Shown in pieces: positions 6,480-43,996 of a stretch of 64,000 nt of DNA. Within the stretch, counting starts at the first letter, position 1. Every line of letters begins with the position of its first letter. The stretch comes from Chitinophagales bacterium. Lineage in GTDB: Bacteria; Bacteroidota; Bacteroidia; Chitinophagales; JADJOU01. Under the pieces are notes generated by a model that worked only from the letters and a program-made list of their open reading frames with translations, did no database searches and was not told the DNA's origin. Made by a program: the position numbers and the translations under genes. The DNA lies in NCBI GenBank assembly GCA_016787225.1, contig JAEUUY010000018.1:1-64000 (forward strand), in the 5' to 3' direction.

Positions 6480-6484
6480 CAGTT

Positions 6485-7049: not shown

Positions 7050-7057
7050 TAAATTTG
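7050..7057 (+). promoter_or_regulatory. Predicted -7 box (TAAATTTG) of the denitrification regulator
   Basis: TAAATTTG matches TAnnTTTG exactly and lies 26 bases before the TTG start at 7083. No TTTG -33 box is visible at the right spacing, which fits dependence on the upstream CRP/FNR-type site. Confidence 0.5.
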
Positions 7058-7082
7058 CGGAAAATAATAAACTAAAGAAGTC

Positions 7083-7502: not shown

Positions 7503-7521
7503 AAAAAATTAACCACATTTG

Positions 7522-7535
7522 CGATATTCCTATCG
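7522..7535. promoter_or_regulatory. Short palindrome upstream of cytochrome c / nirK
   Basis: CGATA-ttcc-TATCG, 39 bases before the ATG of the cytochrome c gene and 20 bases after the regulator. The position suits an operator for the adjacent Rrf2 regulator or another NO-responsive factor. The arms are only 5 bp, so this is a weak call. Confidence 0.3.
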
Positions 7536-7573
7536 TAAAATCGTATATAAAAAAACTCTAAAATTAATTCAGT

Positions 7574-8017: not shown

Positions 8018-8044
8018 AAAATTTCACATTTAAATTTTTAAAAA

Positions 8045-9436: not shown

Positions 9437-9452
9437 TAGAGGTAAGTTTCAA

Positions 9453-21587: not shown

Positions 21588-24500
21588 ACATTGAACGAAA
21601 TATTGAAAGGTTACGCAAGGTAAACAGTGATGAGCTTTTACAGGGTTTAATTGCACAAGCTGATGCACGATATATATTGTTCAATACTTCTGAGCAAAGA
21701 GAAAATTTCCCTGCTTACACAATTCAAGATAATAATTTAAACATTTTAGCCCTTTACTATTTAGAAATAGGCTGCTCATTTGGAGAGAACCAAAATTTAG
21801 AGTTGTGTAGAGAGCCAATGGAAAAGGGAGCTTCAATCTTAGAATTTGTTCACAGCTCTGAAGTAAACAAAACTGAATTGAGCAATTATTATTGTTTGAT
21901 TTCTGCTTTAGCTTACTATGTAAGTTTTCAATATTCCAAATCTTTTATCCTCATTCGGAAAATAAAAACCAATACGGTTATTTCAAGCCTCGTAGCACTT
22001 TTTCTTGAACGAAATTTTACTGCATTAGCAGAACTGATTGAACGTTTAATTGTAGATGGAACTTATTCAGATGATTTCATTTCAAGTTCTTTTGAGAATG
22101 AAAATGAAGAAGGAGAACAAAAAATTTATGAGATAAGTATTGCAAGATGTCTCAACGGTTTTATAAAATACTTTCAGACTGGAAATGAAATATATTTATC
22201 TACCGCAAGAGAAAATCTAATCACTTTGAAAGAAATCGTAGAACTAAATTCCGAACCAAGCATGTGGTGGATAATTCGACTTTTAATTTTGATTGCGGAC
22301 GGATTTAATGAGGCTTCATTGTGGAATTCATTAAGAAGTTATTTTGACATCCATTCTCCTACAATAAAAAGATACATTCAATCACTTGTTTACCTTCAAC
22401 CAAGAGGAATTTTTGAACTCTTTATAACACAAAGAAAATCTCTGATAAAAGTTTTGAATCCCGAAAATTTTGGATGTGTTGTTACGATTCCAACAAGTAG
22501 TGGAAAGACAAGAATTGCAGAAATAGCAATTCTCGATTGTGTTGGTAAAGAATCCGTAAACAAGGTTTTATATATTGCACCTTTTAGGTCTTTGGCTTTC
22601 GAAGTTGAAAATTCTTTAGATCAAATTTTATCAAATGTTGGCATTAATTTATCTCACCTCTACGGTGGTAGTTTGTATAATCGACTTGATGAAAAAATTG
22701 TTGAAGAATCACATGTAATTATTGCAACTCCAGAGAAAGCAAAAGCAATTATTAGAGGTAATAGAGAAATTGCCAATCAAATTAAGTTAATAATAATTGA
22801 TGAGGGGCATTTATTGGGAGAAAATAAAAGACTAATTGTAAATGAAATTTTTTATGAAGAGTTAAGATTCTTTATTGAAAAAAACAATGGTAGGTTTTTG
22901 GTTTTATCTGCCGTTCTTCCAAACCCAGAAGACTTGGCTCTTTGGCTTACAAAATCTACAGATACTATTTATAAGGATACTTGGAGACCGTCTGACGAAA
23001 GATTGGGTATTTTAGATTGGACAGGCTCACAGGTAAATTTAAATTGGATGAATAACGACGAAACCCGACCTTCATTCAACAACAAATTTGTTTCTAGTGA
23101 ACAGCAACCATTAAAGCAAAAACAAAGGAAGGTTAGATATTTTCCAAGCAATAAGAATGAAGCAGTTGCATCCACTGCATTTAAACTGAGAAGTTTTGGA
23201 ACAACTTTAATTTTTGTTGGTGCTAAAAAGTCTGTATTTACAATGGCAAATGCTTATCTTAAATGCTTAGGAAATGATCCCGAAGACTACAAGTGGTCAA
23301 ACAAGAATGAATGGAAATCATTTGAGTTGGCTTGTACTGAAACTTACGGGGAAAATAGTAATTGGCTTTTGTATGCAAAAAAAGGGATTCTCTGTCATCA
23401 TGGAGGACTACAGGCTGATGTAAGATTACCATTAGAAAGATTGATGAGGAATGATAAGCCTCTTGTAATAATTTCAACTTCAACATTAGGACAAGGGGTT
23501 AATTTAGGGGTTTCATCGGTTATCTTCTCTACCATTTATCAAGCAGGAGAAAAAATTACTGCGAGAGACTTTTGGAATATCGCCGGCAGGGCTGGTAGAG
23601 CTTTTGTTGACCATGAGGGAAAAATTCTTGTTGCAAGAGATATTTCAGATACTTCAACACCTAGAGCAAAGGAAAAAGTAAGGTGGTATGAACAAACGAT
23701 AAGACAATACTTCAATAAGGAGGAAATAGATATTGCTTCAAGTGGAATTTTAGCTTTGATAAGGGTATTATATCAAGTTACCTCGGCGGATGGAATAGAC
23801 ATTGATACCTTACTGCAACTTATTACAGAAAATAAAATTGAAGAACTTGGAGAAAAAGCAAAAGTTATTGATGAAACCATTGATTGGATTGATGACACGC
23901 TGCTTGCATTGCAAGAATTACATAATACAACGGATGAGATTGACTTTGGGTGGGTGGAATCTTTTTTCAAAAGCTCTTTAGCATTTATTCAAGCAAAAAA
24001 TCAAGATGTCGTCTCCACAGAAAACATATTGAAATTTTTTCAAGCAAGAGTTAAGGGTATTATTAAGAAAGTTGGAAATGATAAAACAAAATGGAAATCC
24101 TTAACTAATTCAGGTATTCCCCTTAACAGCGACCTGTTCCTTGAAAGTAAAATGGATGAAATTCTACTTGCAGTGCGTTCTTTTGGTGATTCAGAAAAAT
24201 TAATTGATGATAAAATTTCTTTAGCAAATGCTACAATAAACATAATTGAACAAATGCCAATATTAGTGGTGGATATTAATCATACTGCAAATCAAAACTT
24301 AAATTCAATTCTTTCAAAATGGATTAATGCAGAGCCAATAAGTTCTTTGAATGCTTTTGATGGAGTCGAGTCCATCATATCAGAATTATTCACCTTTAAA
24401 TTACCTTGGGTTTTTAATGGTATTGCCAAAAAACTTAGGGTTATGAAAATGACGGACGAAGCTGAAATTATTGAGGAACTGTCAATGCTCATAGAAATAG

Positions 24501-24970
24501 GATTGCCAAGTTTAAAGGCACTAAAAATTTATCAAGCTGGAATTAGGTCAAGGGTTTCCGCACACGAGCTATCAATTCTCTTTGATGATGAACTTTGGGA
24601 CAAGAGTATCAAAGAATACAAAAGTGATATTGTTCTACAGAAAGAATATTACAAAACACTTGTTTCACCTATTTGTCAAGAATGGATTGAGTTACTATAT
24701 GTCATGACAAGAAAAAAGATTCAAACTATTAAAAACATTCCTCATTTTAAATTTGGTAATGTTCATATGAAAACAGAAATATTAATTGCAAAAGAGATAA
24801 ATGGAAAACAATACCTATTAAGCCCAGACTGCTCTTTTATTCAAGATATTACTGGATCAAAAATTGACTTTAGCTCCGTCAATAAGGTTGTTGGTGTTTT
24901 TTTTAACTATGATAGCGAGGATAATCTTTGGAAAATGATACTTGATAATCCATATTTAATAGTTAAGTAA
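21584..24970 (+). CDS. hamB: HamB, DEAD/DEAH-type helicase of Hachiman
   Basis: 1128-aa superfamily 2 helicase. A ~290-aa N-terminal region precedes Walker A (PTSSGKT, about 302-308), a DEGH box (IIIDEGHLLGE, about 405-412), motif III SAVLPNPEDL and motif VI NIAGRAGRAF. The long C-terminal region is helical. It unwinds DNA with free ends and controls HamA. No accessory gene follows; the next genes are convergent. Confidence 0.92.
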   Translation: MNIERNIERLRKVNSDELLQGLIAQADARYILFNTSEQRENFPAYTIQDNNLNILALYYLEIGCSFGENQNLELCREPMEKGASILEFVHSSEVNKTELSNYYCLISALAYYVSFQYSKSFILIRKIKTNTVISSLVALFLERNFTALAELIERLIVDGTYSDDFISSSFENENEEGEQKIYEISIARCLNGFIKYFQTGNEIYLSTARENLITLKEIVELNSEPSMWWIIRLLILIADGFNEASLWNSLRSYFDIHSPTIKRYIQSLVYLQPRGIFELFITQRKSLIKVLNPENFGCVVTIPTSSGKTRIAEIAILDCVGKESVNKVLYIAPFRSLAFEVENSLDQILSNVGINLSHLYGGSLYNRLDEKIVEESHVIIATPEKAKAIIRGNREIANQIKLIIIDEGHLLGENKRLIVNEIFYEELRFFIEKNNGRFLVLSAVLPNPEDLALWLTKSTDTIYKDTWRPSDERLGILDWTGSQVNLNWMNNDETRPSFNNKFVSSEQQPLKQKQRKVRYFPSNKNEAVASTAFKLRSFGTTLIFVGAKKSVFTMANAYLKCLGNDPEDYKWSNKNEWKSFELACTETYGENSNWLLYAKKGILCHHGGLQADVRLPLERLMRNDKPLVIISTSTLGQGVNLGVSSVIFSTIYQAGEKITARDFWNIAGRAGRAFVDHEGKILVARDISDTSTPRAKEKVRWYEQTIRQYFNKEEIDIASSGILALIRVLYQVTSADGIDIDTLLQLITENKIEELGEKAKVIDETIDWIDDTLLALQELHNTTDEIDFGWVESFFKSSLAFIQAKNQDVVSTENILKFFQARVKGIIKKVGNDKTKWKSLTNSGIPLNSDLFLESKMDEILLAVRSFGDSEKLIDDKISLANATINIIEQMPILVVDINHTANQNLNSILSKWINAEPISSLNAFDGVESIISELFTFKLPWVFNGIAKKLRVMKMTDEAEIIEELSMLIEIGLPSLKALKIYQAGIRSRVSAHELSILFDDELWDKSIKEYKSDIVLQKEYYKTLVSPICQEWIELLYVMTRKKIQTIKNIPHFKFGNVHMKTEILIAKEINGKQYLLSPDCSFIQDITGSKIDFSSVNKVVGVFFNYDSEDNLWKMILDNPYLIVK

Positions 24971-28083: not shown

Positions 28084-28130
28084 TCAACAAATTGCCAACA
28101 TATTAATTTTTAATTAGAAATATTTATGCG

Positions 28131-28138
28131 TACCTTTG
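28131..28138 (+). promoter_or_regulatory. Predicted -7 box (TACCTTTG) of the XRE-ImmA pair
   Basis: Exact TAnnTTTG. It lies after a possible ATG at 28126 and 18 bases before the ATG at 28156, so it decides for the latter start. Confidence 0.5.
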
Positions 28139-28155
28139 CGCAAGATAACCCCAAT

Positions 28156-28476
28156 ATGTCACAGGAAATATATGTATTAATTGGTGAAAACGTAAGAAAA
28201 GAGAGGGAGAAATTAGGAATTAATCAGGTAGAATTAGGAAATCGAGTAAAATTTAATCGCTCTTCAATCTCTAATATAGAAAAAGGAAAGCAAAAAACAC
28301 CTATACATGTTTTATATAGGATTGCAAAAGAACTTCAGGTAGATGTTAGGGATTTTCTCCCATCTCAAAACGAAATTGAACAAGTTTTGAGCAATGAAGA
28401 CAAAAGATTAAGAGGGTTATATGAAAAACATGGACAAGGTATGTCTTATGATGAGTTTATCAAATTATTTAATTAG
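28156..28476 (+). CDS. XRE-family repressor divergent from the Ubl operon
   Basis: 106 aa, starting MSQEIYVLIGENV. A standard XRE HTH (EKLGINQVELGNRVKFNRSSISNIEKGKQKTP) is followed by a short C-terminal tail. I reject the ATG at 28126 because the -7 box lies between the two ATGs. It forms a two-gene unit with the ImmA/IrrE protease 5 bases downstream, like ImmR/ImmA pairs in which the protease destroys the repressor upon stress. The natural target is the divergent Ubl operon. Confidence 0.85.
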   Translation: MSQEIYVLIGENVRKEREKLGINQVELGNRVKFNRSSISNIEKGKQKTPIHVLYRIAKELQVDVRDFLPSQNEIEQVLSNEDKRLRGLYEKHGQGMSYDEFIKLFN

Positions 28477-28481
28477 TAGTA

Positions 28482-28988
28482 ATGGCAAGTAAGTACATAG
28501 AGCAAAAAACAGAGGATTTGTTGAAAAAATACCAACTATTTAAGGCTCCTATAGATATTGAATCATTGGTTTCAGAGATAGGAATATCCCTATTTGGAAA
28601 GAAGTTAGAGGACAATATATCAGGAGTTCTTATTATCCGTGAGGGTAAACCAATGATTTCATTTAATGAAAATGAGAAAAAAGTTGAACGGAGAAGATTT
28701 ACTATTGCTCATGAGTTGGGGCATTTTATTTTGCATTCAAAAAATCAACCTATGTTTATTGACCGAAAAATGTATAGGGACATTAATTCTACAACTGGTG
28801 AAAAACAGTGGGAAGTTGAAGCGAATTCATTTGCTGCTTCTATATTAATGCCTAAAGCCCTTATTGACGAAGAAATTAAAAGTATTCAAGATGGAAGTGA
28901 TTGTGCACCTGTGCTTGCAAAAAGATTTAGGGTTAGTGATGTTGCAATGAATTACAGACTTTTGAATCTAGGTTATATTACAAATTAG
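28482..28988 (+). CDS. ImmA/IrrE-family metallopeptidase
   Basis: 168 aa. Zinc motif HELGHFILH (HExxH, about residues 78-86) and the downstream Glu in EVEANSFAASILMP are typical of the ImmA/IrrE family. Such peptidases cleave a cognate XRE repressor. It is cotranscribed with the XRE gene and should act as the inducer of the Ubl operon (inference). Confidence 0.9.
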   Translation: MASKYIEQKTEDLLKKYQLFKAPIDIESLVSEIGISLFGKKLEDNISGVLIIREGKPMISFNENEKKVERRRFTIAHELGHFILHSKNQPMFIDRKMYRDINSTTGEKQWEVEANSFAASILMPKALIDEEIKSIQDGSDCAPVLAKRFRVSDVAMNYRLLNLGYITN

Positions 28989-29124: not shown

Positions 29125-31884
29125 TTACAATCTAGTTGAACTCTCACTGAGACAAATTATACGAAATCCCACATCGTAGAATAAATTATAAGATCGATCT
29201 ACGGCTCTAGCACTGCATGCTGCAACGGAGTGATTATTATACCAACTACTCCCTCTAACAACTCTTTCATCAAGACTATTGCTATTAATTCTCTGTGAAT
29301 CAAATTCTTTATTATATGAAAAGAAAATACTATCAGTCCACTCCCAAACATTTCCACACATATCGCATGGTCCATTTTTCCATAATTCTTCATATACCCC
29401 AACAGGGGATGGTTGCCTCATATTGAGTTGATTAGTTGACACATGTGCCTTTGACTCAATCCATGTATCACCCCAAGGATAAATGCTGTCATTAGCATTT
29501 ATTCGAATAGTTCTTTCCCATTCAAACTCTGTAGGTATACTAAATTTTTCAGTGCTTAAAATTGTCTTTTCTTTTCTTGCACGTAATGTTAACCACCTAC
29601 AATATGCCTCAGCTTCCCAGAAATTTATTCCAACAACAGGTTGATTTGACTGATTAAACCTATTATCGTCCCAATAGAAAGGTAATTGCCTTGGAGCTGT
29701 TCTGTGAAAAGATTCTTCTACTAATCTCGATTCATTTATTTCGCCATCTCTAATTTCTTTTGCATGATGCAGATGTACCTTCTCCAGCCAATCTAATCTA
29801 ATTCTTTCAATAACTTCAAGATTACCCTTAATCCAACCCTCAGACATTAATCCATTCCAATACTCAATGTTTGTATAGCCACCATCTTCAATGAAAAGTT
29901 TAAAGTCAGAATTTGTTACTAAATACTTGCCAATTTTAAATTTATAGAAATTTATAGTTCTAACTTCTCCAACAAATGCTCCTGAGTTTTTTAAAACCTC
30001 TTCATTAAGTCTATCGCTTCCAATGTTACATGTACCTTCTGGAATTTCAATTAGTTTTGGAGTCGTATTTCCAAACCTTGGATCCCCAAGTCCAGAAAGG
30101 ATATTTGAACATCTTTCAATCTCTGCAAGTCTTAAGGAGGAATTTGCTATGTTGTCTAATATTTTTCCTTTTGTCAATTCCCATAATCCTTCTTTGCTTA
30201 AAACAGAAGAAAACTTATGTAAAATTAGTCTACTTTTTCCAATTTCAACTAACATTTCACCAGCAAGCAATATTGATAACAATTGATTTTTTTCCTTCAA
30301 TAAGCCATTTACTAATTCAAGAACATAATATAAGTTGTTGGCATCATGCCCTGCAAAACTTGACATTAACTTATAAGGTTCAATCCAATTTGGATCATTT
30401 CCGTTTAAAATTGCTTCCTCCCTTTTTGCGCCTGTTGCAAAGTATTGACCAGCTAAAAACTCTTGAAAAGAACGATGAGAAAATTTGAATGAATGGTTGT
30501 CAATATTGATTATTAGTCCGTGGTTGTTCATAATTCTGTTTATTAAGTCAATCGAGTTAATTTGCGGTTTACTCGATTCTGAACTTTTCAACTCATCGCA
30601 CATTTGATCTGAAAGTATTTTTATCTCATTATAGTTAATAGAACTATTATTTTCACGAATATGTATGTTATAAGCAATTTCTATTGACAATGAATATACA
30701 AGTGGTGAAGCAGTTGTTAATACTCCGGCTTCTCGGGATCTCCATTTTGCATTATCTGCCAACATTAACTTTATAGCTTTTTCACAAAGAACTGACCTAG
30801 AATCTGGCAACTTGGCTTCTTCAGAATGTATCAAAGTTAACAATGCTAAAAGCATAGGAGAAGAGGCTATCTCTTTTAAATCATTGCCCTTTACTTCATT
30901 AATTAGTGCTTCCATTAATCCCCTAGCTTGAATTGAATTAAATCGACCTATACCTACAGCAGATTTATACCAACCTTCAATATATTTAATTTGCTCTTCT
31001 AAATTATAGGGTAATAACTCTAATTCCTGTTGAATAGGAATTTTTCTATTCGGATTTTCTTGTTTGTAGTCAAACTTTCTACATGACACTATTGTTCTTG
31101 TTCCATTATTTAGTGCACAAAAATGCGCAATAATTGCTTTAACCGCGCCAATATTATAATCTTGAACTTCATCTAAACCATCTAATAGAATTAAAGCCCT
31201 TCCTTCAATTATTGCATTAATCAAGTCATTAGATAGGGTAGACTGTGATTTTTCTGAGTTTGCCTTACCAATTGAGTTTATTTCAGGTATATTTTGTATT
31301 AAAGTTTCCGTTGGAGTTGAATTAGTTAAAAATTTAAAGGAGGATAAGTTTATCCAGATTGGCAATATTTTATTTTTTGACTTCGAATAATTTTTAGCGA
31401 AATTTAGCGAAATTGATGCCAGTGAAGTAGATTTACCACTTCCAGGATCACCTAATATAATTATTGAGTTATTTGACTTGTTTAGAACATCCATAAGGTC
31501 CTCACCATTATCTTGTTCTGCCATATTATCATGTGAAGATTGCTTTCTATTTCTTACTTGATTATTCGCAACTCTCAATGGTGTCCATACCTGATCAAGA
31601 GTGACCATACCATCCAGTAAATTTGAATTTTTCGTATGAACGTTTGAGGGATCTCCAAAACTAAGCAGAGAACACCTTGTAATCAGATAAGTTAAATATA
31701 AATTAATTGATGACTTATCAGGGTGATCTTGTATTTTGTTCTCTCTTTTTTCTTTACGACTTTTAATCTTATAAATTATTATACCAAATATAGTACCACC
31801 AATTCCAAGTAAAACTGTACCAATTATTTCGCCAGATTTATCTATAAAATATTTCGTTAATTTATCTATTATTTCCATTGTCAT
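29125..31884 (-). CDS. Membrane-anchored NACHT NTPase with C-terminal SUMF1-fold domain
   Basis: 919 aa. One N-terminal membrane helix (about 20-39), then a NACHT ATPase: Walker A GDPGSGKS (145-152), Walker B LILLDGLDEV (231-240), and the NACHT-type arginine segment TIVSCRKFDY (264-273). A helical middle follows. The last ~300 residues are a SUMF1/FGE (C-type-lectin-related) domain (EIPEGTCNIGSD, QPVVGINFWEAEAYCRWL, EFEWERTIR, NVWEWTDS, RGSSW, VGFRII). STAND/NACHT proteins with such ends are known as ligand-sensing immune proteins in bacteria. It overlaps the racemase-like gene by ATGA and ends a six-gene operon of amino-acid enzymes. Confidence 0.9.
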   Translation of the reverse strand: MTMEIIDKLTKYFIDKSGEIIGTVLLGIGGTIFGIIIYKIKSRKEKRENKIQDHPDKSSINLYLTYLITRCSLLSFGDPSNVHTKNSNLLDGMVTLDQVWTPLRVANNQVRNRKQSSHDNMAEQDNGEDLMDVLNKSNNSIIILGDPGSGKSTSLASISLNFAKNYSKSKNKILPIWINLSSFKFLTNSTPTETLIQNIPEINSIGKANSEKSQSTLSNDLINAIIEGRALILLDGLDEVQDYNIGAVKAIIAHFCALNNGTRTIVSCRKFDYKQENPNRKIPIQQELELLPYNLEEQIKYIEGWYKSAVGIGRFNSIQARGLMEALINEVKGNDLKEIASSPMLLALLTLIHSEEAKLPDSRSVLCEKAIKLMLADNAKWRSREAGVLTTASPLVYSLSIEIAYNIHIRENNSSINYNEIKILSDQMCDELKSSESSKPQINSIDLINRIMNNHGLIINIDNHSFKFSHRSFQEFLAGQYFATGAKREEAILNGNDPNWIEPYKLMSSFAGHDANNLYYVLELVNGLLKEKNQLLSILLAGEMLVEIGKSRLILHKFSSVLSKEGLWELTKGKILDNIANSSLRLAEIERCSNILSGLGDPRFGNTTPKLIEIPEGTCNIGSDRLNEEVLKNSGAFVGEVRTINFYKFKIGKYLVTNSDFKLFIEDGGYTNIEYWNGLMSEGWIKGNLEVIERIRLDWLEKVHLHHAKEIRDGEINESRLVEESFHRTAPRQLPFYWDDNRFNQSNQPVVGINFWEAEAYCRWLTLRARKEKTILSTEKFSIPTEFEWERTIRINANDSIYPWGDTWIESKAHVSTNQLNMRQPSPVGVYEELWKNGPCDMCGNVWEWTDSIFFSYNKEFDSQRINSNSLDERVVRGSSWYNNHSVAACSARAVDRSYNLFYDVGFRIICLSESSTRL

Positions 31885-32786
31885 ATTAAAATTTTAGAAT
31901 AACAATCTTTCACCATGAAGTCTGCAAACATTTCCATTGAGCTAACTCCAATTTTCAAATTAAAATCTGTACATGCTTCAACTAGAACCAAGTTCTGAAA
32001 AGACGGCTCATATTTTTTAATTAATTTTTCTTTTATCTCAAATATTAGTGAGTCTATACTCTGATTAAAACTTATTGAGTTAATAATCCATTTTTCAATG
32101 TTCGTATAGTCTTCATTATCTAAATAAATTATATTAAATTTACTCAAATATTTATTATTATTAAGTGTATGATAGATGTTGTTTGTTTCTTTCGTTCCCA
32201 TTATAAGTAAATTGTTATAGGAACGATTTTCGCAAGAATCTAATACCCCCTCCGGTACGGTGCATGCTCTTATTTCCGTTGAAAGTATTTTTTCTATTGG
32301 ATGCAAACTCAATCCGTTTCTATTAAAATACAAAGTTATAAGCTCATTTGAATTAAATATTTCAGCCATTCTTAAAATTGTATCAGAAAGACTATTGCAA
32401 ATTATAGCAATCCTTATTTTTTTATATCCAAAATTTATTGCGGCATTAATTGATGGGACTATCCTTAAAAATAATTTGTTTTGAAACAAATCCGAAATGC
32501 CCGTGTCTCCAAGAGCAATAAGTATCTCGCTATTTATACAGCCAAATTTTAAATTTAATTCATCAATATGCTCACGCTTTAGAAAATTAACATCCCCAAT
32601 TAGTTCAAACATAATGCGCCTATATTCATCAAAAAAAATCATATCATTTTCTTTGATTAGCTCAGTAATATATTCTCTTTCTATGCATTCCAGTAACCTT
32701 AAAAAGTCAATAGATGCCTTCCTACCAAAGTCAGATATGACTATGTCAAAAACCATATCTGAGTCAAGAATCTTTTTTGCAATCAT
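31881..32786 (-). CDS. Asp/Glu-racemase-like protein
   Basis: 301 aa. It fits the aspartate/glutamate/hydantoin racemase superfamily: IVISDFGRKASIDFLRLL near the N-terminus, the first catalytic-type Cys in IAIICNS (C130), a LLIMGTKET segment (193-200) like the family's T/GT strand, and a second Cys in LVLVEACTDF (C272). Both Cys are kept, so proton-transfer racemisation or epimerisation is possible. Overall similarity is weak, and the N-terminus is longer than usual. It starts one base after the RidA stop and overlaps the NACHT gene. Confidence 0.55.
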   Translation of the reverse strand: MIAKKILDSDMVFDIVISDFGRKASIDFLRLLECIEREYITELIKENDMIFFDEYRRIMFELIGDVNFLKREHIDELNLKFGCINSEILIALGDTGISDLFQNKLFLRIVPSINAAINFGYKKIRIAIICNSLSDTILRMAEIFNSNELITLYFNRNGLSLHPIEKILSTEIRACTVPEGVLDSCENRSYNNLLIMGTKETNNIYHTLNNNKYLSKFNIIYLDNEDYTNIEKWIINSISFNQSIDSLIFEIKEKLIKKYEPSFQNLVLVEACTDFNLKIGVSSMEMFADFMVKDCYSKILI

Positions 32787-33239
32787 TTATTGAACTTCAA
32801 AAATTGCTTCAATTTCAACCGCCCAATTCGATGGAATGACTGCACCAATAGCAGTTCTTGCATGAAGCCCAGTGTTTTCAAATACATAGTTGAAAAATTT
32901 ACTGCCTCCATTAATCACTGATGAAGTATCGTTAAAGTCTGCTGCGCAGTTTACTAGCCCCAATATTTTTACAACTCTAACAATAGAATTTACATGGACA
33001 ATAGACCCTGCGGCTCTTACACAGTTAAATGCACAAATTTCAGCTGCTTTAATTGCTTGTTCTAGGGTAACATCATTTCCAACTTTACCTTTAATAATAG
33101 TTGTGTTATAAATTGGAATTTGACCAGAGGTAAAAACCAAATTTCCAACTCTTGTCGCAGATCCAAATGGTAAATCGCCAACTTGAATACTTGAAGGAGA
33201 GTAACTATAACCCAATTCTTCCATTTTTTTAATAATCAT
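32787..33239 (-). CDS. RidA/YjgF-family imine deaminase
   Basis: 150 aa. Family signatures: VGNLVFTSGQIPI, EQAIKAAEICAFN, and the C-terminal GLHARTAIGAVIPSNWAVEIEAIFE, with the substrate-binding Arg in ARTAIG. RidA proteins hydrolyse reactive imines produced by PLP or FAD amino-acid enzymes. Here both enzyme types are encoded in the same operon, which supports a working metabolic set. A start at the second Met (33224) is possible. Confidence 0.88.
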   Translation of the reverse strand: MIIKKMEELGYSYSPSSIQVGDLPFGSATRVGNLVFTSGQIPIYNTTIIKGKVGNDVTLEQAIKAAEICAFNCVRAAGSIVHVNSIVRVVKILGLVNCAADFNDTSSVINGGSKFFNYVFENTGLHARTAIGAVIPSNWAVEIEAIFEVQ

Positions 33240-33253
33240 AATTATATTTTTAG

Positions 33254-34363
33254 TTAATTAAATCTATCTAATAAAAAGCAGTTCTTATCATATGGATAAT
33301 GATTAGTATTATTGATCCAGTCTGATAAAATTGCACCTCCTGCTGGGGAATGCATTATTCCTTCGCCACCCCAACCACAATTGTTAAAATATCCTTCAAT
33401 ACCATTAGTTGGTCCTAATATTGGAAGATTGTCATCGGTTATTGGTCGAATTCCGCTTATCCCGCCTAAAAGTTCAAAAGGGTACAATTCTGGAGCTCGA
33501 TAACGTGTAAATTCAATAACATTTGGTAGAAAATCTAAATTGGCATTATCCGTTGGTATTGCATCAGTTTCAAGTCCCATTCCTATCATTACCTTGTTAT
33601 TCCCCATCGGTTTATAATACCATTCTTTCTCTGAATCTTCAACCATTGGACCAAGATTATATTTAGAGGAATTTGTCATAACATAGTAGAGCGATCTTCT
33701 TTTATTAGTAATTGGCAATTTAATATCTACCCAAGTAGCCACCTCTTTAGCATCGGCTCCAGCAGCATTAACTACGATATTACAATCGATTGTTCTCAAA
33801 GATGTTTTTACACCACATATCTTGCCATTTTTAAGTATGATATCCAATGCCTTTTCTCCGGTAAAAATTTTTACATTCAATTTTTTCGAATAACTCAGAA
33901 AAGTAGAAATTATTTGGCTAGGATTTATCTCACAATCATCTTTTCCTAGAACACCAAATTTAACATCACAAAAATTAAGTCCTGAAAGTCTTTTTTTCAT
34001 TTCACTTACTGTAAGGATTTCAGAAGGCACTCCCATTTTAAGCCTAATTTCATGCTCCTCGTTATATCTAGCCTCAGTTTTATCTGTTACTAAACTTAGA
34101 AATCCTAGTTTGTTTACTATTAAATCATCTTTAAACTCATTTAAGAAATCAAAATATCTATTATATGAATAAATTGATAATTGAATTTTAGCTATGTTCT
34201 CTCTCGATTTCATAAGCATTGATCCAGACCTACTGGAAGATCCGTTCCCAACTTCATTTTTAGATTCAACTACATAAATCTCAACTTTTGGGTTGTATTT
34301 TGCTATATTGTATGCTGAACTCAATCCTTGTATACCTGCACCAATAATTACTATCTTATCCAT
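33254..34363 (-). CDS. FAD-dependent amino-acid oxidase-like protein (DAO family)
   Basis: 369 aa. N-terminal Rossmann FAD site VIIGAGIQGLSSAY (5-18) with the Glu of YVVESKNEVG, then the DAO-family RSGSMLM segment and the late GGISGIRPITDDNLPILGPT and NNCGWGGEGIMHSPAGG stretches. Relatives oxidise glycine, sarcosine or D-amino acids to imines with release of hydrogen peroxide. The substrate is unknown; an amino acid made or used by the neighbours is expected. Confidence 0.85.
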   Translation of the reverse strand: MDKIVIIGAGIQGLSSAYNIAKYNPKVEIYVVESKNEVGNGSSSRSGSMLMKSRENIAKIQLSIYSYNRYFDFLNEFKDDLIVNKLGFLSLVTDKTEARYNEEHEIRLKMGVPSEILTVSEMKKRLSGLNFCDVKFGVLGKDDCEINPSQIISTFLSYSKKLNVKIFTGEKALDIILKNGKICGVKTSLRTIDCNIVVNAAGADAKEVATWVDIKLPITNKRRSLYYVMTNSSKYNLGPMVEDSEKEWYYKPMGNNKVMIGMGLETDAIPTDNANLDFLPNVIEFTRYRAPELYPFELLGGISGIRPITDDNLPILGPTNGIEGYFNNCGWGGEGIMHSPAGGAILSDWINNTNHYPYDKNCFLLDRFN

Positions 34364-34365
34364 AA

Positions 34366-35529
34366 TTAATTTGTAATTTTTAATGAGTTTAATCTAATAA
34401 CCAATTCATCAATCTCTTTATAGTTCAAAGTAGAGTAGCTAATTCTTATGAATCTATTTTTATTTGGAACAAACAGATTGCCGGGCAAAACTAATACTCC
34501 CATCGAAAGTATTAACTGACTTACTACTTTTTCGGTAGGGGTATTAAAATTATGTTTAACCCAACCAAAGAAAACCCCATGACTGACGAGTTGAAAATTC
34601 TCATTTAAATTTCTCATAGCTGCTTTAAAGTAATTTCCTTTGTTTGTAATGTATTTTATATTCTTACATTTTTCTTTTTCGCCTAATTTAAGGCTAATTA
34701 TTGCCACTTTTTGACCTATAGTAGACGGTGACACAGAAATGCACTCAGACACTTTTAACATTTCTTGTAGAACTTGATTTTTTGAAATTATAGCACCAAT
34801 TCTATATCCACAAAGTGCGTAGTCTTTAGATAAGCTTTGTAAACTAATAAAATTGTTCGCCCACGATTTAATTTTGAATAAATCGTGAGGCGTACTTTGG
34901 TTGAAAATAAAACTCTTATAAGTTTCATCAATTACTAGAAAGATATTATTCTCAGCGCAGAAATAATATAAATCTAAGAGCACTTTATTTGGAATAATAT
35001 AGCCTGTTGGGTTAACTGGATTTGTTAGAATAATGGCACGTGTCTTTTTTGTGATTAATTTATGAACAACTGAAACATCAACCATATTATTTTTCGTAGT
35101 ATCAATATACTTTATCATTATACCCTCCATTTCTAGAAACATACGATGATTAAAATAATACGGACTAAGAAGTAAGACTTCATCTCCTTCTTTGAATAGT
35201 GTTAATACTAGTATTGCGAATGCATTATTACAACCAGAGGTAATTAAAATATTTTCTTTGTTTATTCTTGCTTGGTAACACTTAGAATAATTAAATGCTA
35301 ATAAAGTCTTTAATTCTTTAAAGCCTCCTCTTTCAGAATAGAGAGCCGTTTCTTTTTGTTCAATTTCATTTACAAAATACTTTATCAAGGTTTTATCAGG
35401 AAAGTAATTGGGCATACCTTCAGTTAAGTCCATTATTGGCTCACTTCCATGGTATTTGGTTTTTAACTTTTTTAATTCCTCAATTGGGGATTTTTTCTGA
35501 AGTAAAGTTTTAGGTAATAAATTAATCAT
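34366..35529 (-). CDS. PLP-dependent aminotransferase (class I/II)
   Basis: 387 aa fold-type I aminotransferase. It shows the SGCNNAF cofactor loop, the Asn of TNPVNPTGY, the VIDETYKSF Asp/Tyr pair, the PLP Lys in SLSKDYALCGYRIGAI, and the terminal substrate Arg (NRFIRISYS). It would swap amino and keto groups on an amino acid. It is adjacent to the methyltransferase (4 bases), the pairing found where a 2-keto acid is methylated and then re-aminated. Confidence 0.88.
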   Translation of the reverse strand: MINLLPKTLLQKKSPIEELKKLKTKYHGSEPIMDLTEGMPNYFPDKTLIKYFVNEIEQKETALYSERGGFKELKTLLAFNYSKCYQARINKENILITSGCNNAFAILVLTLFKEGDEVLLLSPYYFNHRMFLEMEGIMIKYIDTTKNNMVDVSVVHKLITKKTRAIILTNPVNPTGYIIPNKVLLDLYYFCAENNIFLVIDETYKSFIFNQSTPHDLFKIKSWANNFISLQSLSKDYALCGYRIGAIISKNQVLQEMLKVSECISVSPSTIGQKVAIISLKLGEKEKCKNIKYITNKGNYFKAAMRNLNENFQLVSHGVFFGWVKHNFNTPTEKVVSQLILSMGVLVLPGNLFVPNKNRFIRISYSTLNYKEIDELVIRLNSLKITN

Positions 35530-35533
35530 TAAT

Positions 35534-36565
35534 TTATACTTTTTTAGTCAAAAGGAATCCAATCTTTAATTCCAACGAATCATAATTACTAGATGGATAA
35601 ACATAATGATTAACTACTAGTCCAGATTTTTCAAATAACTTAACCCAAAAACTTTTCTCAACTAATCTTTGTTTTGTTAAAGTGTGCAAAAGAAAATATG
35701 GGTTATAATAAGATAATGCTAAGTCATTCTTGAATATCTCTCTGTCATTAAACTTATTATCAACTTCAATTATAACAAAAGCTGCATTAGGGTATATAGT
35801 GAACAATTTGGTTAAAAATTCAATGATCGACTCTTCTCCTGTTTGTTCCAATACTTCTTGCAGAACAAAAGCTGCAATGAAACATACATTTTTTAATTCT
35901 GAATCAGTATTGCCTAATTTTGAGATTTCATTTATAGTTCCTTTAATAAAACTTACCCTTTCTTTAAGGCCCGATTCTAATAAATAAAAGTTTCCTTTAT
36001 CGATTGATTTTTGTTCTGGGTCTAGTCCAATACCATTAACATTTTTCATGCTACTGCACAATTCAATTAAAAAACTTCCGTCTCCACAACCAAAATCAAT
36101 CAAAAAATCTATACTATGATCAACTCTTGAAATTAACTCGAGCGTCATTGGAATAGCATCAAATTTGCTAATTCCGCAACTTCCAATACCAACAAGCTCA
36201 TCATTTCTTGTTGCATATTTAATTTTTGAATCTAGCAAATCTGATATTTGATAAAAAGTATTCGAGTAGCCACCAATTAATAAATCATACCAAGGTTTGT
36301 ATAAATCTAACCCTTCGCATTTCTTGGTTAATTGAAATTCTTTAAGTTTGTTAACCTTTATGTATTTTTCATTTTTTAGATAAGTGAGTATTCCATTTAA
36401 TATCTTCTCATTAATAAACAATTTTTTAGTCAGGTATTCAACGGTACATTTACCATTTAACTTAATTTCATTATGAATTCCTTTATGTAAAAAATGAAAC
36501 AGTACGCTCGCAAGTACATGGTATCTAATTGGTTTTAAGTTTTTTGCTAAATCAAATTCTTTCAT
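35534..36565 (-). CDS. SAM-dependent methyltransferase with winged-helix N-terminus
   Basis: 343 aa. A ~90-residue dimerisation/winged-helix region precedes a class I methyltransferase with motif I LIDFGCGDGSFLIEL (about 153-167) and the acidic GIGLDPEQ of motif II. The segments PWYDLLIGGYSNTFYQ and VGIGSCGISKFDAIP remind me of 2-ketoarginine methyltransferase (MrsA)-type enzymes, which methylate the beta-carbon of a keto acid beside an aminotransferase. That recognition is from memory and needs a profile search. First gene of the operon. Confidence 0.8.
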   Translation of the reverse strand: MKEFDLAKNLKPIRYHVLASVLFHFLHKGIHNEIKLNGKCTVEYLTKKLFINEKILNGILTYLKNEKYIKVNKLKEFQLTKKCEGLDLYKPWYDLLIGGYSNTFYQISDLLDSKIKYATRNDELVGIGSCGISKFDAIPMTLELISRVDHSIDFLIDFGCGDGSFLIELCSSMKNVNGIGLDPEQKSIDKGNFYLLESGLKERVSFIKGTINEISKLGNTDSELKNVCFIAAFVLQEVLEQTGEESIIEFLTKLFTIYPNAAFVIIEVDNKFNDREIFKNDLALSYYNPYFLLHTLTKQRLVEKSFWVKLFEKSGLVVNHYVYPSSNYDSLELKIGFLLTKKV

Positions 36566-36588: not shown

Positions 36589-36596
36589 CAAAGATA
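36589..36596 (-). promoter_or_regulatory. Predicted -7 box (TATCTTTG) of the NACHT operon
   Basis: Exact TAnnTTTG on the minus strand, 23 bases before the ATG of the methyltransferase gene at 36565. No TTTG -33 box at the usual distance. Confidence 0.5.
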
Positions 36597-37025: not shown

Positions 37026-37060
37026 GTAGAATTTGCTCAGTAAGTTTTTTTGTATAACAT

Positions 37061-37084
37061 AAAACAGCGACTAGTCGCTGTTTT
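37061..37084. terminator. Bidirectional palindromic terminator
   Basis: A perfect 24-base palindrome (arms AAAACAGCGACT) with A- and T-rich flanks. It should stop transcription on both strands, isolating the NACHT operon promoter from the RuvC-fold gene. Confidence 0.6.
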
Positions 37085-37274
37085 AAATTTTATTCTGATT
37101 AATAACAATGTGTATGAGTATCGAATAACTTCATTTAATAATGTTTAGAGTAATAGAGTTTTTGTTTATTAGATTTCTTGGGTTCTAATTCTTCATATTA
37201 CTTAATGATATTAAAAGAAATATCTAAATTGGTTGCGGCATTGAAGTCAGAAAAGTTTGAGATTGCAAAATAAC

Positions 37275-37757
37275 TTACACCTTCAAATACCAATGCGTTG
37301 TTAAAAGCGCAAAGGCATCAAATACTCCCATCTGATAATGTTCAGGTTTCCACGGTCGCCGTTTTGGAGGGATAATAGATTCTAGTTCAGGATACCATTT
37401 CATGATCTGAACTGAAATCTCAAATTTGGTATTCGATCCCAGCACAGAAAAGGTATCTCGAATTTGCCTTTTCGAGTATTTCTTAATGTCTAAATTCTTT
37501 GCTCGAGCAAGAGATTCAATTTCCTTTATCGTGCCCGTGACCCTATGTGACACATTTGATTTATCATAATCAAGGAGAATAACCACTTGAGGTTTGCCAT
37601 AATCTAAAAACCATTTCACTTTTTTGATAAATTTGTGTTTTGAAAATGGTCTAAATTTTCTCACGCCGTAGTCATATATTTCCTTTGGATGACTCGCTAT
37701 AACGTATCCAAGTCCTGTAACATTTGGAAACAGAACGAGTACAACTCTATTCTTCAT
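37275..37757 (-). CDS. RuvC-fold protein lacking the first catalytic Asp
   Basis: 160 aa from the ATG at 37757 (37775 is possible). RuvC-like features are the first strand VLVLFPNVTGLGYVIA, the middle VVILLDYDKSN, the Lys-rich QIRDTFSVLGSNTKFEISVQIMKWYP and the final VFDAFALLTTHW. Canonical RuvC begins with an Asp where this protein has Phe (LVLFPN instead of GIDPG), so Holliday-junction cleavage is doubtful. It is coupled to the upstream XRE gene by overlap. Such degenerate RuvC-fold proteins may only bind DNA. Confidence 0.6.
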   Translation of the reverse strand: MKNRVVLVLFPNVTGLGYVIASHPKEIYDYGVRKFRPFSKHKFIKKVKWFLDYGKPQVVILLDYDKSNVSHRVTGTIKEIESLARAKNLDIKKYSKRQIRDTFSVLGSNTKFEISVQIMKWYPELESIIPPKRRPWKPEHYQMGVFDAFALLTTHWYLKV

Positions 37758-38130
37758 CAAATTCTTCTCCATCATAGGTATCAGGGGTATTAAGTGCTTT
37801 TAAACAACCGATACTTCGGAGAATGTCTTCAAGGGCTTCGACCCTCATTTGAACTTTTTTGGTTTGGATTTCATCTTCTAGTTGACCCATTAATTGCACT
37901 ACTTTTCGAGAAATCCTATCTGCTAATGAGAAAATATCAGTTTGAAAATATTTAAAAAGTGGTTCATTTGAAATAATATGATAACCAAGACTGATGTGTA
38001 GAGGAACACTTTTAACAGCTCGTTCATATTTGGAAAGATTGGAAACATCATAATCAAGAAGAAATGCTATATCTTGAATCGTAAGTTTTGATTTTTTACG
38101 ACTACGCTTAAGGTGGTTATGTAATAACAT
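37747..38130 (-). CDS. XRE-family regulator of the mobile element
   Basis: 127 aa. The N-terminal HTH is seen in KSKLTIQDIAFLLDYDVSNLSKYERAVKSVP (about residues 14-44); the rest is helical with an acidic tail. Operator-like palindromes lie just upstream (38142-38232), as expected for an autoregulated element repressor. It is followed by and overlaps the RuvC-fold gene. Confidence 0.8.
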   Translation of the reverse strand: MLLHNHLKRSRKKSKLTIQDIAFLLDYDVSNLSKYERAVKSVPLHISLGYHIISNEPLFKYFQTDIFSLADRISRKVVQLMGQLEDEIQTKKVQMRVEALEDILRSIGCLKALNTPDTYDGEEFDEE

Positions 38131-40774: not shown

Positions 40775-41551
40775 TTATTTCAATTTGTATTGTTCTTTTA
40801 ATATCTCCCATTGTTCAGATAGATAAGGATTTAATTTCGAGTATAATGATTCACTTATTAATAAGTTAAATGTTGACAAGGTAGTTTCATAGTTTAGCAT
40901 GGTTAGAATGATTTCAGGCTCTTTTTTAGAAGTAAATTCTTCTTCTCTTAAATCATTATAAAGTCGACAAAAACTGTCAAGAATATATTTCACTCTTAAG
41001 CAAAAAATGGAATGATTTACTGCATCTGAAATTAAATAAATAGGTAAGGTCAGTTGTAATATCATTGTAAGTGCAGTATTGTAACCCTGAACTGCAAGAG
41101 AAAGAATTATTACAGTAACAATAAAGTTCGTTATCCATTTTGTTTTTAGTCCTTTAATAGCCAAATGGTAAGTAAAAAAACAACTTTCAAAACTGTTGAC
41201 ACCCATTCTTAAGATGCCATTTTCAATTGTATCGTTGTTATAATACTTATTTGATTTATTTGAAGAATAATTTGTGCCAAATGAATTGTCTATAAAGTCT
41301 GAACGTTTGTCAAATGAAGTATGAAAAATTAAATAATTAACTGCAAACTTGAGAAGAGTATATAGAATTATCACAACTGTGTTTGCATTACTTAAAATTT
41401 CTGCCCATTCTTTAAGGTTGGTAGCATATTTATTAAATACAAAATTTAGTAAAGTTAAAACTGCTGATAAAATCAGAATTTTAAAAGCTATCGAATCAAT
41501 TTTCTTTGCTAGTTTAAATGATTCTCGTAATGGGTTATAATATTCATTCAT
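40775..41551 (-). CDS. S-4TM-type pore-forming CBASS effector
   Basis: 258 aa from the ATG at 41551, which overlaps the stop of the nucleotidyltransferase gene (ATGAATGA). Four membrane helices are predicted in two hairpins (about 20-70 and 140-195), followed by a cytoplasmic C-terminal helical region. Layout and partner match SMODS-associated 4TM effectors, thought to depolarise or permeabilise the membrane when a cyclic nucleotide binds. An upstream ATG (41638) is unlikely because it overlaps the enzyme gene by 95 bases. Confidence 0.75.
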   Translation of the reverse strand: MNEYYNPLRESFKLAKKIDSIAFKILILSAVLTLLNFVFNKYATNLKEWAEILSNANTVVIILYTLLKFAVNYLIFHTSFDKRSDFIDNSFGTNYSSNKSNKYYNNDTIENGILRMGVNSFESCFFTYHLAIKGLKTKWITNFIVTVIILSLAVQGYNTALTMILQLTLPIYLISDAVNHSIFCLRVKYILDSFCRLYNDLREEEFTSKKEPEIILTMLNYETTLSTFNLLISESLYSKLNPYLSEQWEILKEQYKLK

Positions 41552-42536
41552 ATGAAGGGAATTTATCTCCAAAAATAATTTTCCAATTTTCAATTGCCTT
41601 TTCTTGATTCTTTTTTTCAATTTCAAAGTCAAGAGCAATTAAGGCAGTATCATAGCAGGATTTAGCTTTATTTGAGACCTTTTCTCTTTGTTCACTTGCA
41701 AGATTGTTTATGTTACCCTGAATGTCTTTTGGATCTTGAACATCATAAGGAATGTTAGAGTATAAATAGTAAAAAAAGTCTTTTATATTAATATCATTGA
41801 AATCGTTCTGCTCTACCTTTGATTTTACAAAGTTCAATACAAGAACTTCAAATAGATATGAACCAATTTTAGGGCTTACGAAATTTGCATTCCAATACTT
41901 TAAGGTTCTAACTAGTTGGTATACCTTTCCACCGTAATTGAGATTTGTCTCCTTTATGTTGTCGTGGTCTTTGATTGGATTTGAAGCTTTCCAATTCCCA
42001 TTTCCATCAGGAATCAGATAAAAGTTATCAACTGTGTAAAAACAGGGTACAATATCATAACTCCAAGAATATGAAATTAAGTTAAGTACGGCTGCTTCCT
42101 GATTTCTTTTTATATCCGCGTTTGAGTATTGTGGTATTGTCTCTAATGATTTTACAAGTTTGTTAACTACTTTTATTGAATTTAGAGTAAAGTCATCATT
42201 TGAAAGTTTCTTTAACTTATCATTCGCATTCTCTGTATGAATATGATATTTTTTATTGTCATTAAAATCTATTTTGTAATATGCGTCGCCTGCCCCTAAA
42301 CAATACATAAGATCTATGTCGTCGAGCGGTCTTATTTTGGTCTTTCTTTCAAAGGAGCCAAATTTTATATGTCTTTCGGGGTAATCATTTGGAAAGGCTT
42401 CAACGCTTTCGGGAAAAGCCAATAGCTGGCTAATTAGCCAATCTCTACTACTTCTTGCATTATCGGTATTTTCTTTGATAAGGTTTACTATATCTTTATT
42501 AAATTCTTCAAATGCTTGATTTACGCTTTTTGCCAT
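41544..42536 (-). CDS. CD-NTase (SMODS) cyclic-oligonucleotide synthase of CBASS
   Basis: 330 aa. Catalytic signature GS at 60-61 (IKFGSFERKT), D73-x-D75 (LDDIDLMY) and the third Asp in SYDIVPCF (D161), all present. Such enzymes make cyclic di- or trinucleotides upon phage infection. With only the membrane effector downstream and no Cap2/Cap3 or HORMA/TRIP13 genes, this is a minimal type I CBASS. It is carried on the opposite strand inside the mobile element as cargo. Confidence 0.88.
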   Translation of the reverse strand: MAKSVNQAFEEFNKDIVNLIKENTDNARSSRDWLISQLLAFPESVEAFPNDYPERHIKFGSFERKTKIRPLDDIDLMYCLGAGDAYYKIDFNDNKKYHIHTENANDKLKKLSNDDFTLNSIKVVNKLVKSLETIPQYSNADIKRNQEAAVLNLISYSWSYDIVPCFYTVDNFYLIPDGNGNWKASNPIKDHDNIKETNLNYGGKVYQLVRTLKYWNANFVSPKIGSYLFEVLVLNFVKSKVEQNDFNDINIKDFFYYLYSNIPYDVQDPKDIQGNINNLASEQREKVSNKAKSCYDTALIALDFEIEKKNQEKAIENWKIIFGDKFPSYE

Positions 42537-42780: not shown

Positions 42781-42798
42781 ATGTTGGAGTATGTTTAA
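42781..42798 (+). promoter_or_regulatory. Five-codon leader ORF overlapping the VirD4-like gene start
   Basis: ATG TTG GAG TAT GTT TAA overlaps the ATG at 42791 by 8 bases. It shares 15 of 16 bases (ATGTTGGrGTATGTTT) with the leader at 38432-38447. Confidence 0.5.
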
Positions 42799-43996
42799 TC
42801 ATTTCAATCCTCAAATTTCATATTTTGCAACAACAGATTTCCGAAATACGAATGAACAATTCGGCATTAAACAGAACGACCGAATGGTGGGCTTGTATAT
42901 ACTTGGTAAAACAGGGACAGGAAAAACTAATCTCCTTGAGACTTTAATTTACCAAGATATATATTTCAATCGAGGTATCTGTGTCATGGATGTGAATGGC
43001 GACTTGATAAAAAAAGTAGCAAGTATGATTCCGAACTACCGAAAAGAGAATACAGTGTATCTCGACACCTCTGATGTAAATCTCACGTGGGGATATAATC
43101 CTTTGAAAAGAGTTGCATACCCATATCGCCACCTCATAGCATCGCATATCATTGAGACTTTTCAGAAGCTATGGGGTCAGCAGGCTTGGGGAATTAAATT
43201 GGAACATATCCTCCGTAATGTCATCCTTACACTCCTCGATCAAGAAAAATCTGATTTTACGGATATCAATAGAATATTAGTTGACTCAGAGTTCAGAAAA
43301 TCATGTATGAACTGCATTGTCTCAAAAGAAGTTTTGAGTTTTTGGGAAAAGGAATTTCCTAGTTACTCAAAGGCAGATGTTTTGCCTGTTCTGAATAAAG
43401 TAGGTAGTTTCATGGCTATACCCACCATCAAGAAAATTCTCGTTGACAACAAAGTGCAAATTTCTATTGGAGACATCGTCAACAACCAAAAAGTAATGCT
43501 CGTAAATCTCTCCAAAGGAACTCTTGGTGTTGATGCGGCACACCTCCTTGGTTCTCTTTTACTCAATGCATTTTCATCAGCTGGATTCTATCGCACGACT
43601 ATTCCTGAATCTGAGCGTAAACCGTTTTTCATTTATCTTGATGAATTCCAAAACTTCACAACCCTATCACTCGTCAATATGTTTGCCGAACTGCGAAAAT
43701 TCAAAATTGCCTTTATCCTTGCCCATCAATATCTTGGACAACTGAATCCAAAAATCAAAGACGCCATCATGGGAAACATTGGTAGTATAGTTTGTTTTCG
43801 TATGTCCTATGACGATGCAAAATATATGGCTCATGAGTTCTTTCCTTACATTGAAGTAAAAGACTTTATCAATCTTCAGAACTACCGTATTTATACTAAG
43901 CTCCTCATAGATGGAATGCCAGGGAAGCCTCTCTCAGCTAGTACGATTCGGCTTTCAGCGCCAATTGTGGAAAGTACCAAAGAGGACGCCTTTTAA
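42791..43996 (+). CDS. VirD4/TraD-like conjugative coupling ATPase, short form
   Basis: 401-aa P-loop ATPase of the T4CP/HerA class. Walker A is GKTGTGKTNLLE (about 39-50), Walker B FFIYLDEFQNF (about 278-288), and the TraM-recognition-like segment LAHQYLGQLNPKIKDAIMGNIG follows. No membrane helix, so it is a soluble form. A longer relative is encoded at 51254. Its last codons (ESTKEDAF) are repeated as DNA at 44483. Probably moves DNA during transfer or maintenance of the element. Confidence 0.85.
   Translation: MFNHFNPQISYFATTDFRNTNEQFGIKQNDRMVGLYILGKTGTGKTNLLETLIYQDIYFNRGICVMDVNGDLIKKVASMIPNYRKENTVYLDTSDVNLTWGYNPLKRVAYPYRHLIASHIIETFQKLWGQQAWGIKLEHILRNVILTLLDQEKSDFTDINRILVDSEFRKSCMNCIVSKEVLSFWEKEFPSYSKADVLPVLNKVGSFMAIPTIKKILVDNKVQISIGDIVNNQKVMLVNLSKGTLGVDAAHLLGSLLLNAFSSAGFYRTTIPESERKPFFIYLDEFQNFTTLSLVNMFAELRKFKIAFILAHQYLGQLNPKIKDAIMGNIGSIVCFRMSYDDAKYMAHEFFPYIEVKDFINLQNYRIYTKLLIDGMPGKPLSASTIRLSAPIVESTKEDAF

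Follow-up and report, generated by a model that had tools for sequence, protein, structure and literature searches.

Bacterial NACHT and other STAND antiphage proteins (bNACHT/STAND), including the conflict STANDs that end in formylglycine-generating enzyme (FGE) or CLec domains, combine a central NACHT domain bearing Walker motifs, an NLR-like predicted fold and a C-terminal FGE/CLec sensor, and lie in defence islands (PMC10907252, PMC12169576). They are described as single genes or with protease or adapter partners. Here, we describe a six-gene operon from a Chitinophagales bacterium (Bacteroidota), located in a window of 64,000 nucleotides (contig JAEUUY010000018.1, positions 1 to 64,000), in which a receptor of this known kind is instead accompanied by five metabolic enzymes and has a fixed sensor face. 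The enzymes are a methyltransferase, an aminotransferase, a DAO-family oxidase, a Rid-family deaminase (RidA) and a protein resembling Asp/Glu racemases (Table 1). As far as we found, the pairing of a NACHT receptor with a five-enzyme amino-acid pathway is new, and the operon is probably a real, undescribed bacterial immune system.

Several other described systems share parts of this composition. As in 3-methylarginine biosynthesis by MrsA and MrsB, an MrsA-family 2-keto-acid methyltransferase stands beside an aminotransferase; in the operon, however, the methyltransferase scores under the equivalog cut-off, the aminotransferase is PRK07550-like, and oxidase, Rid, racemase-like and NACHT genes are added. 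The sensor domain of the receptor resembles the sulfoxide and selenoxide synthases EgtB and OvsA, which bind histidine- and cysteine-derived substrates, in fold and in nearest solved sequences, but the receptor is without their DinB/three-histidine iron domain. CBASS and Panoptes (PMC12657218) offer a parallel in the proposed coupling of small-molecule synthesis to a membrane effector that reads the molecule, although none of the six proteins is a nucleotide cyclase, the proposed signal would be derived from an amino acid, and its reader would be a NACHT protein. PADLOC returned only weak, partial matches for the five enzymes and no more than fragments for the receptor, which in NCBIfam partially matches the antiphage NACHT protein EruA. 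Open-access full texts, a scope leaving aside subscription papers and most preprints, contained no described system of such composition, in agreement with a preliminary description of this DNA, which had known of none.

The six genes are near certain to be a real conserved unit across two phyla. A search for the six-gene neighbourhood, proposed in the preliminary description, yielded one further copy, on plasmid NZ_CP123587.1 of Alisedimentitalea scapharcae (Alphaproteobacteria), where methyltransferase, aminotransferase, oxidase, RidA, racemase-like and NACHT-SUMF1 genes have the same order and strand as in the window. Rarest among them is the racemase-like protein: tblastn matches it to just one of 72,556 plasmids, namely this one, which is also the top-ranked plasmid for all six proteins. 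Identity between the two copies is 46% for the NACHT protein, 29% for the racemase-like protein, 55% for RidA, 42% for the oxidase, 32% for the aminotransferase and 40% for the methyltransferase. For RidA (55% versus at most 43%), the oxidase (42% versus 29%) and the NACHT receptor (47% in the plasmid search versus 24%), the plasmid copy stands apart from the next-best match. The plasmid methyltransferase has a Streptomyces enzyme as its next-best match, and their identity (40%) is close to that of the two system copies; for the aminotransferase no margin is left, a Streptantibioticus enzyme scoring more bits. The catalytic residues of the enzymes are preserved in both copies. The layout given previously, with six open reading frames on one strand separated by short gaps, one direct abutment and a 4-base overlap, agrees exactly with the coordinates (minus strand, 29125-36565; spacing 4, 2, 14, 0 and -4 bases), and the corresponding gaps on the plasmid are -7, 6, 26, 3 and -17. 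Recurrence of the gene order in another phylum also bears out the claim of a single operon. Its G+C content is 0.31; the flanking parts of the window have 0.38 and 0.35.

Chance adjacency of unrelated genes, which the preliminary description had named as the way in which its reading could fail, was examined from both sides. Every family occurs elsewhere without the others: MrsA-type methyltransferases without NACHT exist, as do NACHT-SUMF1 proteins without the five enzymes, which are only about 24% identical to the operon receptor and include those of 80 control loci. The five-enzyme set, by comparison, was found only alongside the NACHT subfamily of the operon (n=2, two phyla). Because the identical six-gene order and strand recur on a plasmid of another phylum, one that ranks top for each gene, chance adjacency is refuted, and we give it practically no weight.

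Searches for further copies covered several collections. None was found in phages or in IMG/VR, where one apparent match (L121) was spurious. A racemase profile revealed no further copy in 395 + 299 Bacteroidota, 385 Alphaproteobacteria, 369 Gammaproteobacteria and 214 genomes from the phylum to which G676 belongs; its single match, of 64 residues (E 6e-4), was taken as chance. Scanning GTDB contigs with the racemase-like protein alone gave no match. A second GTDB scan, with generic FGE motifs, is uninformative on absence; it returned at least 80 NACHT/FGE loci, used as controls, and among the matches listed the five enzymes were not present at any of these 80. Since relatives of the methyltransferase and of the racemase-like protein are missing from the other Bacteroidota sampled (246 and about 700, respectively), the operon may have been horizontally acquired in this phylum, a history that fits its distribution.

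The receptor had been described as a membrane-bound NACHT-SUMF1 protein, and the present analysis concurs: Pfam places NACHT at residues 141-244 and FGE-sulfatase at residues 608-910, and a hydrophobic segment is found in both copies (residues 20-38 in the window and, near the same place, 29-47 on the plasmid). Against PF05729, the window receptor scores 37.5 bits, above the cut-off of 26.7, and the plasmid receptor 26.2, just below it; the Walker A and B motifs are invariant in both. An AlphaFold2 model built from 20 NACHT-FGE relatives (pLDDT 73.8, pTM 0.74) resembles NLRC4 (Z 25.2 over 427 residues), NOD2 (24.6) and NLRP3 (Z in the range 23-25) in its NACHT and helical parts. The modelled C-terminal domain is nearest to EgtB (Z 23.8), followed by OvsA (22.7), PvdO (21.9), the Treponema denticola variable protein 2y3c (20.5) and FGE (19.8). 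EgtB and OvsA (Z 22-24, 26-28% identity) are also the nearest solved relatives of this domain by sequence.

Formylglycine-generating enzymes have two active-site cysteines after an RGGSF motif. Both expected positions are without cysteine in the receptors (window RGSSWYNNHSVAAC, plasmid RGSSWQNNPIVAAC), neither receptor has a match to the DinB domain that provides the three-histidine iron site of EgtB, and the NCBIfam EgtB model gives 79.9 bits against a cut-off of 360. FGE or EgtB enzyme activity was rejected on account of these missing catalytic motifs, and for the same reason the C-terminal domain is probably a binder, not an enzyme. A second FGE-sulfatase-domain protein is encoded in the window at 9411-10205, in the unrelated context of a respiratory cluster (copper oxidase, cytochrome c, COX1-like).

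In FGE/CLec-tailed conflict proteins, the C-terminal domain has variable target-facing residues, which in some bacteria are diversified by retroelements (PMC10907252). In the control sequences, the variation falls between the RGGSW and GFR motifs, and we compared identity in this stretch with identity in the rest of the domain across the FGE domains of the 80 control loci and other plasmid loci. Between the two system copies, 31 of the 35 residues of the stretch are identical (89%) versus 53% elsewhere in the domain, an excess of +0.35. The mean excess is 0.00 (s.d. 0.09) in 350 NACHT-FGE pairs of similar divergence and -0.04 in 2,542 FGE pairs of any kind; the operon value is the highest in both sets and, with the flanking conserved motifs excluded, still ranks first of the 350 and second of the 2,542. 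The operon receptor holds fixed the face that is varied in its relatives. EgtB binds its histidine-derived substrate via Asn414 and Trp415 (PMC9103826), and these residues align into the 89% stretch, with approximate numbering that is uncertain by a few residues. Five control loci (L008, L016, L019, L026 and L054) each have at least two NACHT-FGE genes whose sensor faces differ among themselves, consistent with paired, diversifying sensors and in contrast to the fixed face of the operon receptor.

A role in defence is likely, in our judgement, because both copies sit in independent defence islands, evidence of co-location, not of a phage assay. The earlier placement of the operon between a ubiquitin-like operon and an element bearing CBASS proved right, with both located in the window together with Hachiman and CapHP-like genes; the element beyond the operon carries a serine recombinase, a CBASS cyclase and a four-transmembrane (4TM) effector. 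On the plasmid, the order is DruE (967 bits), a type II restriction pair (cytosine methyltransferase and MvaI/BcnI-type endonuclease), an HhH-GPD protein, a 2-oxoglutarate (2OG)-Fe(II) oxygenase, the operon, and a transposase-like open reading frame with an integrase core.

As for the enzymes, Pfam and NCBIfam agree with the family labels of the preliminary description for the methyltransferase, aminotransferase, oxidase, RidA and NACHT-SUMF1 protein, but not for the racemase-like protein, which matches no NCBIfam family and, in either copy, no Pfam family (PF01177 included) even at E 5. The methyltransferase scores 360.5 bits against TIGR04543 (356.9 for the plasmid copy), both below the equivalog cut-off of 425, and matches its solved relatives 8r4z and 8rvc at E 4e-61. 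Its family motifs (GSCGIS-FDA-P, EVD and YYNPY-LLH) recur in 8r4z and in two Streptomyces relatives, slightly altered in the most distant one. An H-to-Q exchange at a putative metal ligand was considered as a special trait and dropped, as it is also found in Streptomyces relatives without NACHT. Characterised relatives of this class methylate the carbon adjoining the keto group of 2-keto acids (PMC10502145). For the aminotransferase, the best model is PRK07550 (352 bits, cut-off 366) and the second NCBIfam match GntC; the pyridoxal phosphate (PLP) lysine K235 and the carboxylate-binding R362 are preserved in the plasmid copy. The protein is not MrsB-like, with 20% identity to the MrsB-annotated gene of locus L004.

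In RidA, R128 is invariant in both copies and aligns with the Rid1 structures at the position of Arg105, an important active-site residue of RidA (PMC5619798). The closest structures, 9bk9 and 9bkb, are the Rid1 proteins PA0814 and ACIAD3089, which are inactive on iminoarginine; D-arginine dehydrogenase, an FAD-dependent amino-acid dehydrogenase, is coupled to Rid proteins to yield a 2-keto acid (PMC5619798). The MrsA/MrsB parallel drawn previously holds in part: the logic of an MrsA-like keto-acid methyltransferase stands, but not the MrsB-like partner, and RidA resembles the Rid1 group, whose two tested members are inactive on iminoarginine. Arginine is a candidate substrate, to which the methyltransferase family would point and from which the Rid1-like subfamily would point away. 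The CN, GT and CT motifs of the racemase-like protein line up in register with those of racemase profiles (CNT/GCT), at weak scores, and the protein has a weak match (E 0.018) to an aspartate racemase in the Protein Data Bank (PDB); C130 and C272 are conserved in the plasmid copy, and a single-sequence structure model was unusable (pLDDT 40.8). The natural reading of these families is that the five enzymes would make one beta-methylated, perhaps stereo-inverted amino acid. On a Streptomyces plasmid (L005, 4862-15830), an MrsA-family methyltransferase lies with a TauD dioxygenase, a cupin, a PLP decarboxylase, an amidinotransferase and an ATP-grasp protein, with no NACHT gene, a cluster that looks like an undescribed guanidino-amino-acid pathway.

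We infer the following scheme, from the chemistry of the product and its binding to the polarity of the switch, the effect on the membrane and the defence against phage. The oxidase with the Rid deaminase, or else the aminotransferase, would convert an amino acid through an imine to a 2-keto acid, whose beta carbon the methyltransferase would methylate; the aminotransferase would then restore the amino group, and the racemase-like protein possibly sets the stereochemistry. The product would be a fixed, non-protein, beta-methylated amino-acid-like metabolite, bound by the membrane-anchored receptor via its FGE/EgtB-like end. We favour a metabolite that is made constantly and licenses or restrains the receptor over an infection-triggered messenger, because no enzyme has a recognisable infection sensor; guard-type logic of this sort is described for cyclic nucleotides in Panoptes (PMC12657218). 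Phage takeover might drain, alter or release the metabolite, or a phage factor might be sensed together with it, switching NACHT to its oligomeric state, whereupon the N-terminal membrane segment would damage the infected cell. That the operon is a mobile two-module immune system, with enzymes making a beta-methylated amino-acid-like ligand that the receptor reads, seems to us to have slightly less than an even chance; that this dedicated five-enzyme product is the ligand of an NLR-like NACHT receptor, as a non-nucleotide immune signal or guard molecule, we put forward a shade more tentatively. Several observations weigh against such a ligand. Only two copies of the system are known, the aminotransferase link is weak (264 bits for a Streptantibioticus enzyme, 228 for the plasmid copy), the Rid1-like deaminase speaks against an arginine substrate, the racemase assignment is weak, and the N-terminal segment of the receptor is poorly modelled (pLDDT < 50). 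Moreover, conservation of the sensor face could also reflect a conserved protein partner.

The last point leads to the possibility that what the NACHT-FGE protein recognises is a conserved protein of phage or host, while the enzymes act separately, for example to remove an amino acid or imine that is reactive or induced by phage. For known bacterial NACHT proteins, the triggers are proteins or host chaperones (PMC12169576), and the FGE/CLec ends of STAND proteins have been proposed as antigen sensors (PMC10907252). A protein partner would explain the conserved face but not the gene linkage, and the overlap and cross-phylum association of five biosynthetic genes with one NACHT subfamily would be left unaccounted for, together with the fixity of the face; a fixed ligand made by the operon would explain linkage and conservation alike. 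We regard this protein-directed explanation as rather unlikely, only a little below another in which the enzymes make a toxic amino-acid analogue that poisons phage (and host) protein synthesis or metabolism, with NACHT sensing infection and controlling its release or production. The nearest characterised methyltransferase family makes 3-methylarginine, an antibacterial product of Pseudomonas syringae, and the Streptomyces methyltransferase relatives lie in secondary-metabolite-like clusters. However, neither operon has an exporter, immunity gene or regulated step, a constant toxin would harm the host, and the most conserved site of the receptor is its sensor face, not an effector, which leaves the analogue unlikely too. 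STAND proteins can also regulate metabolism, and the same biosynthetic clusters would suit a small-molecule pathway regulated by NACHT with no part in defence; yet the operon has no DNA-binding domain, transporter, synthetase or resistance gene, and both copies sit amid phage-defence genes, making this improbable.

Should the ligand reading be true, immune signalling, which relies on nucleotide-derived molecules in the systems compared (CBASS, Thoeris and Panoptes), would extend to amino-acid chemistry. A bacterial NLR would then have a defined small molecule as its ligand, and the question of what FGE-tailed NACHT proteins sense would become directly testable. Even a minimal reading leaves a new candidate defence system common to two phyla. 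The novelty lies in the composition of the system and would shrink if the enzymes were unconnected to sensing, the NACHT part being of a known kind.

Table 1. Features of the six-gene operon and neighbouring defence genes in the window.
Feature	Position	Strand	Evidence or remarks
Methyltransferase: S-adenosylmethionine-dependent C-methyltransferase, 2-ketoarginine methyltransferase (MrsA) family, 343 aa	35534..36565	-	TIGR04543 E 8e-108; PDB 8r4z/8rvc
Aminotransferase: PLP aminotransferase class I/II, PRK07550-like, 387 aa	34366..35529	-	profile matches; K235, R362 kept
DAO: FAD-dependent DAO-family oxidase/dehydrogenase, ThiO/sarcosine-oxidase-beta-like, 369 aa	33254..34363	-	PF01266 E 8e-48; PDB 1y56_B
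RidA: Rid-family imine deaminase, Rid1-like, 150 aa, R128 kept	32787..33239	-	PF01042; PDB 9bk9/9bkb
Racemase-like: Asp/Glu-racemase-superfamily-like, 301 aa, C130 (CNxLSD) and C272 (EACTDF)	31881..32786	-	motifs, weak PDB match
Receptor: N-terminal hydrophobic segment, NACHT, helical domains, FGE/EgtB-like C-terminal domain, 919 aa	29125..31884	-	Pfam, AlphaFold2 model
Receptor, candidate membrane helix, residues 20-38	31771..31827	-	mean hydropathy 2.18
Receptor, NACHT core, Walker A GDPGSGKST (K151), Walker B LILLDGLDE	31153..31464	-	PF05729 E 2.7e-9
Receptor, FGE/EgtB-like domain, residues 608-910, putative ligand-binding sensor	29155..30063	-	PF03781 E 1.7e-36
Receptor, exceptionally conserved sensor face, residues 874-908	29161..29265	-	identity between two copies
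Possible Bacteroidota -7 box TATCTTTG upstream of operon	36589..36596	-	weak; frequency equals chance
Hachiman HamA and HamB	20751-24970		275 and 1308 bits
Multi-ubiquitin/E2/E1-JAB/DUF6527 genes (ubiquitin-like operon)	27586-25020		
CapH/CapP-like pair (helix-turn-helix (HTH) and M78-peptidase)	28126-28988		PADLOC 35.7 and 118.4 bits
CBASS cyclase and 4TM effector, overlapping open reading frames	40775-42536		cyclase 423 bits; beside serine recombinase and Phage_rep_O protein
CBASS cyclase gene, separate from operon	41544-42536		

The operon had been placed behind one promoter box. The box TATCTTTG is indeed present, 23 nt ahead of the first ATG of the methyltransferase, but TAnnTTTG is as frequent in the window as expected by chance (88 observed versus 86.5), and no -33 element with proper spacing to the box was seen. 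Further upstream lie an HTH gene (37747-38130) and a gene for a 166-aa protein (37275-37775). Two decayed copies of the 166-aa gene come next on that strand (~37257-37102 and ~37036-36812; 36-47% identity, with stops), and a perfect palindrome, TAAAACAGCGACTAGTCGCTGTTTTA, stands shortly ahead of the operon at 37060-37085. The genes at 37275-38130 were rejected as system members, being about 700 bases away, with the decayed copies and the terminator-like palindrome between, and missing from the plasmid copy.

On the mobilizable marine plasmid (L003), a Druantia DruE helicase adjoins the cytosine methyltransferase, the MvaI/BcnI-type endonuclease and the HhH-GPD glycosylase-like protein (2-9266). 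The 2OG-Fe(II) oxygenase (9343-10149; PF22814, WelO5-like) lies upstream of the methyltransferase at a distance of 22 bases, perhaps as an optional seventh gene that would provide an extra tailoring step; given its HxD motif, it is more likely a hydroxylase than a halogenase.

Farther along the window are two TrwB/HerA-like ATPases (42791-43996 and 51254-54283), Dam- and Dcm-type methyltransferases (44610-46636) and a MazF-like toxin (55315-55785). The CapH/CapP-like pair converges on the six-gene operon and diverges from the ubiquitin-like one, which makes it an unlikely regulator of the former; ubiquitin-like defence operons may thus also come under CapHP-type control.

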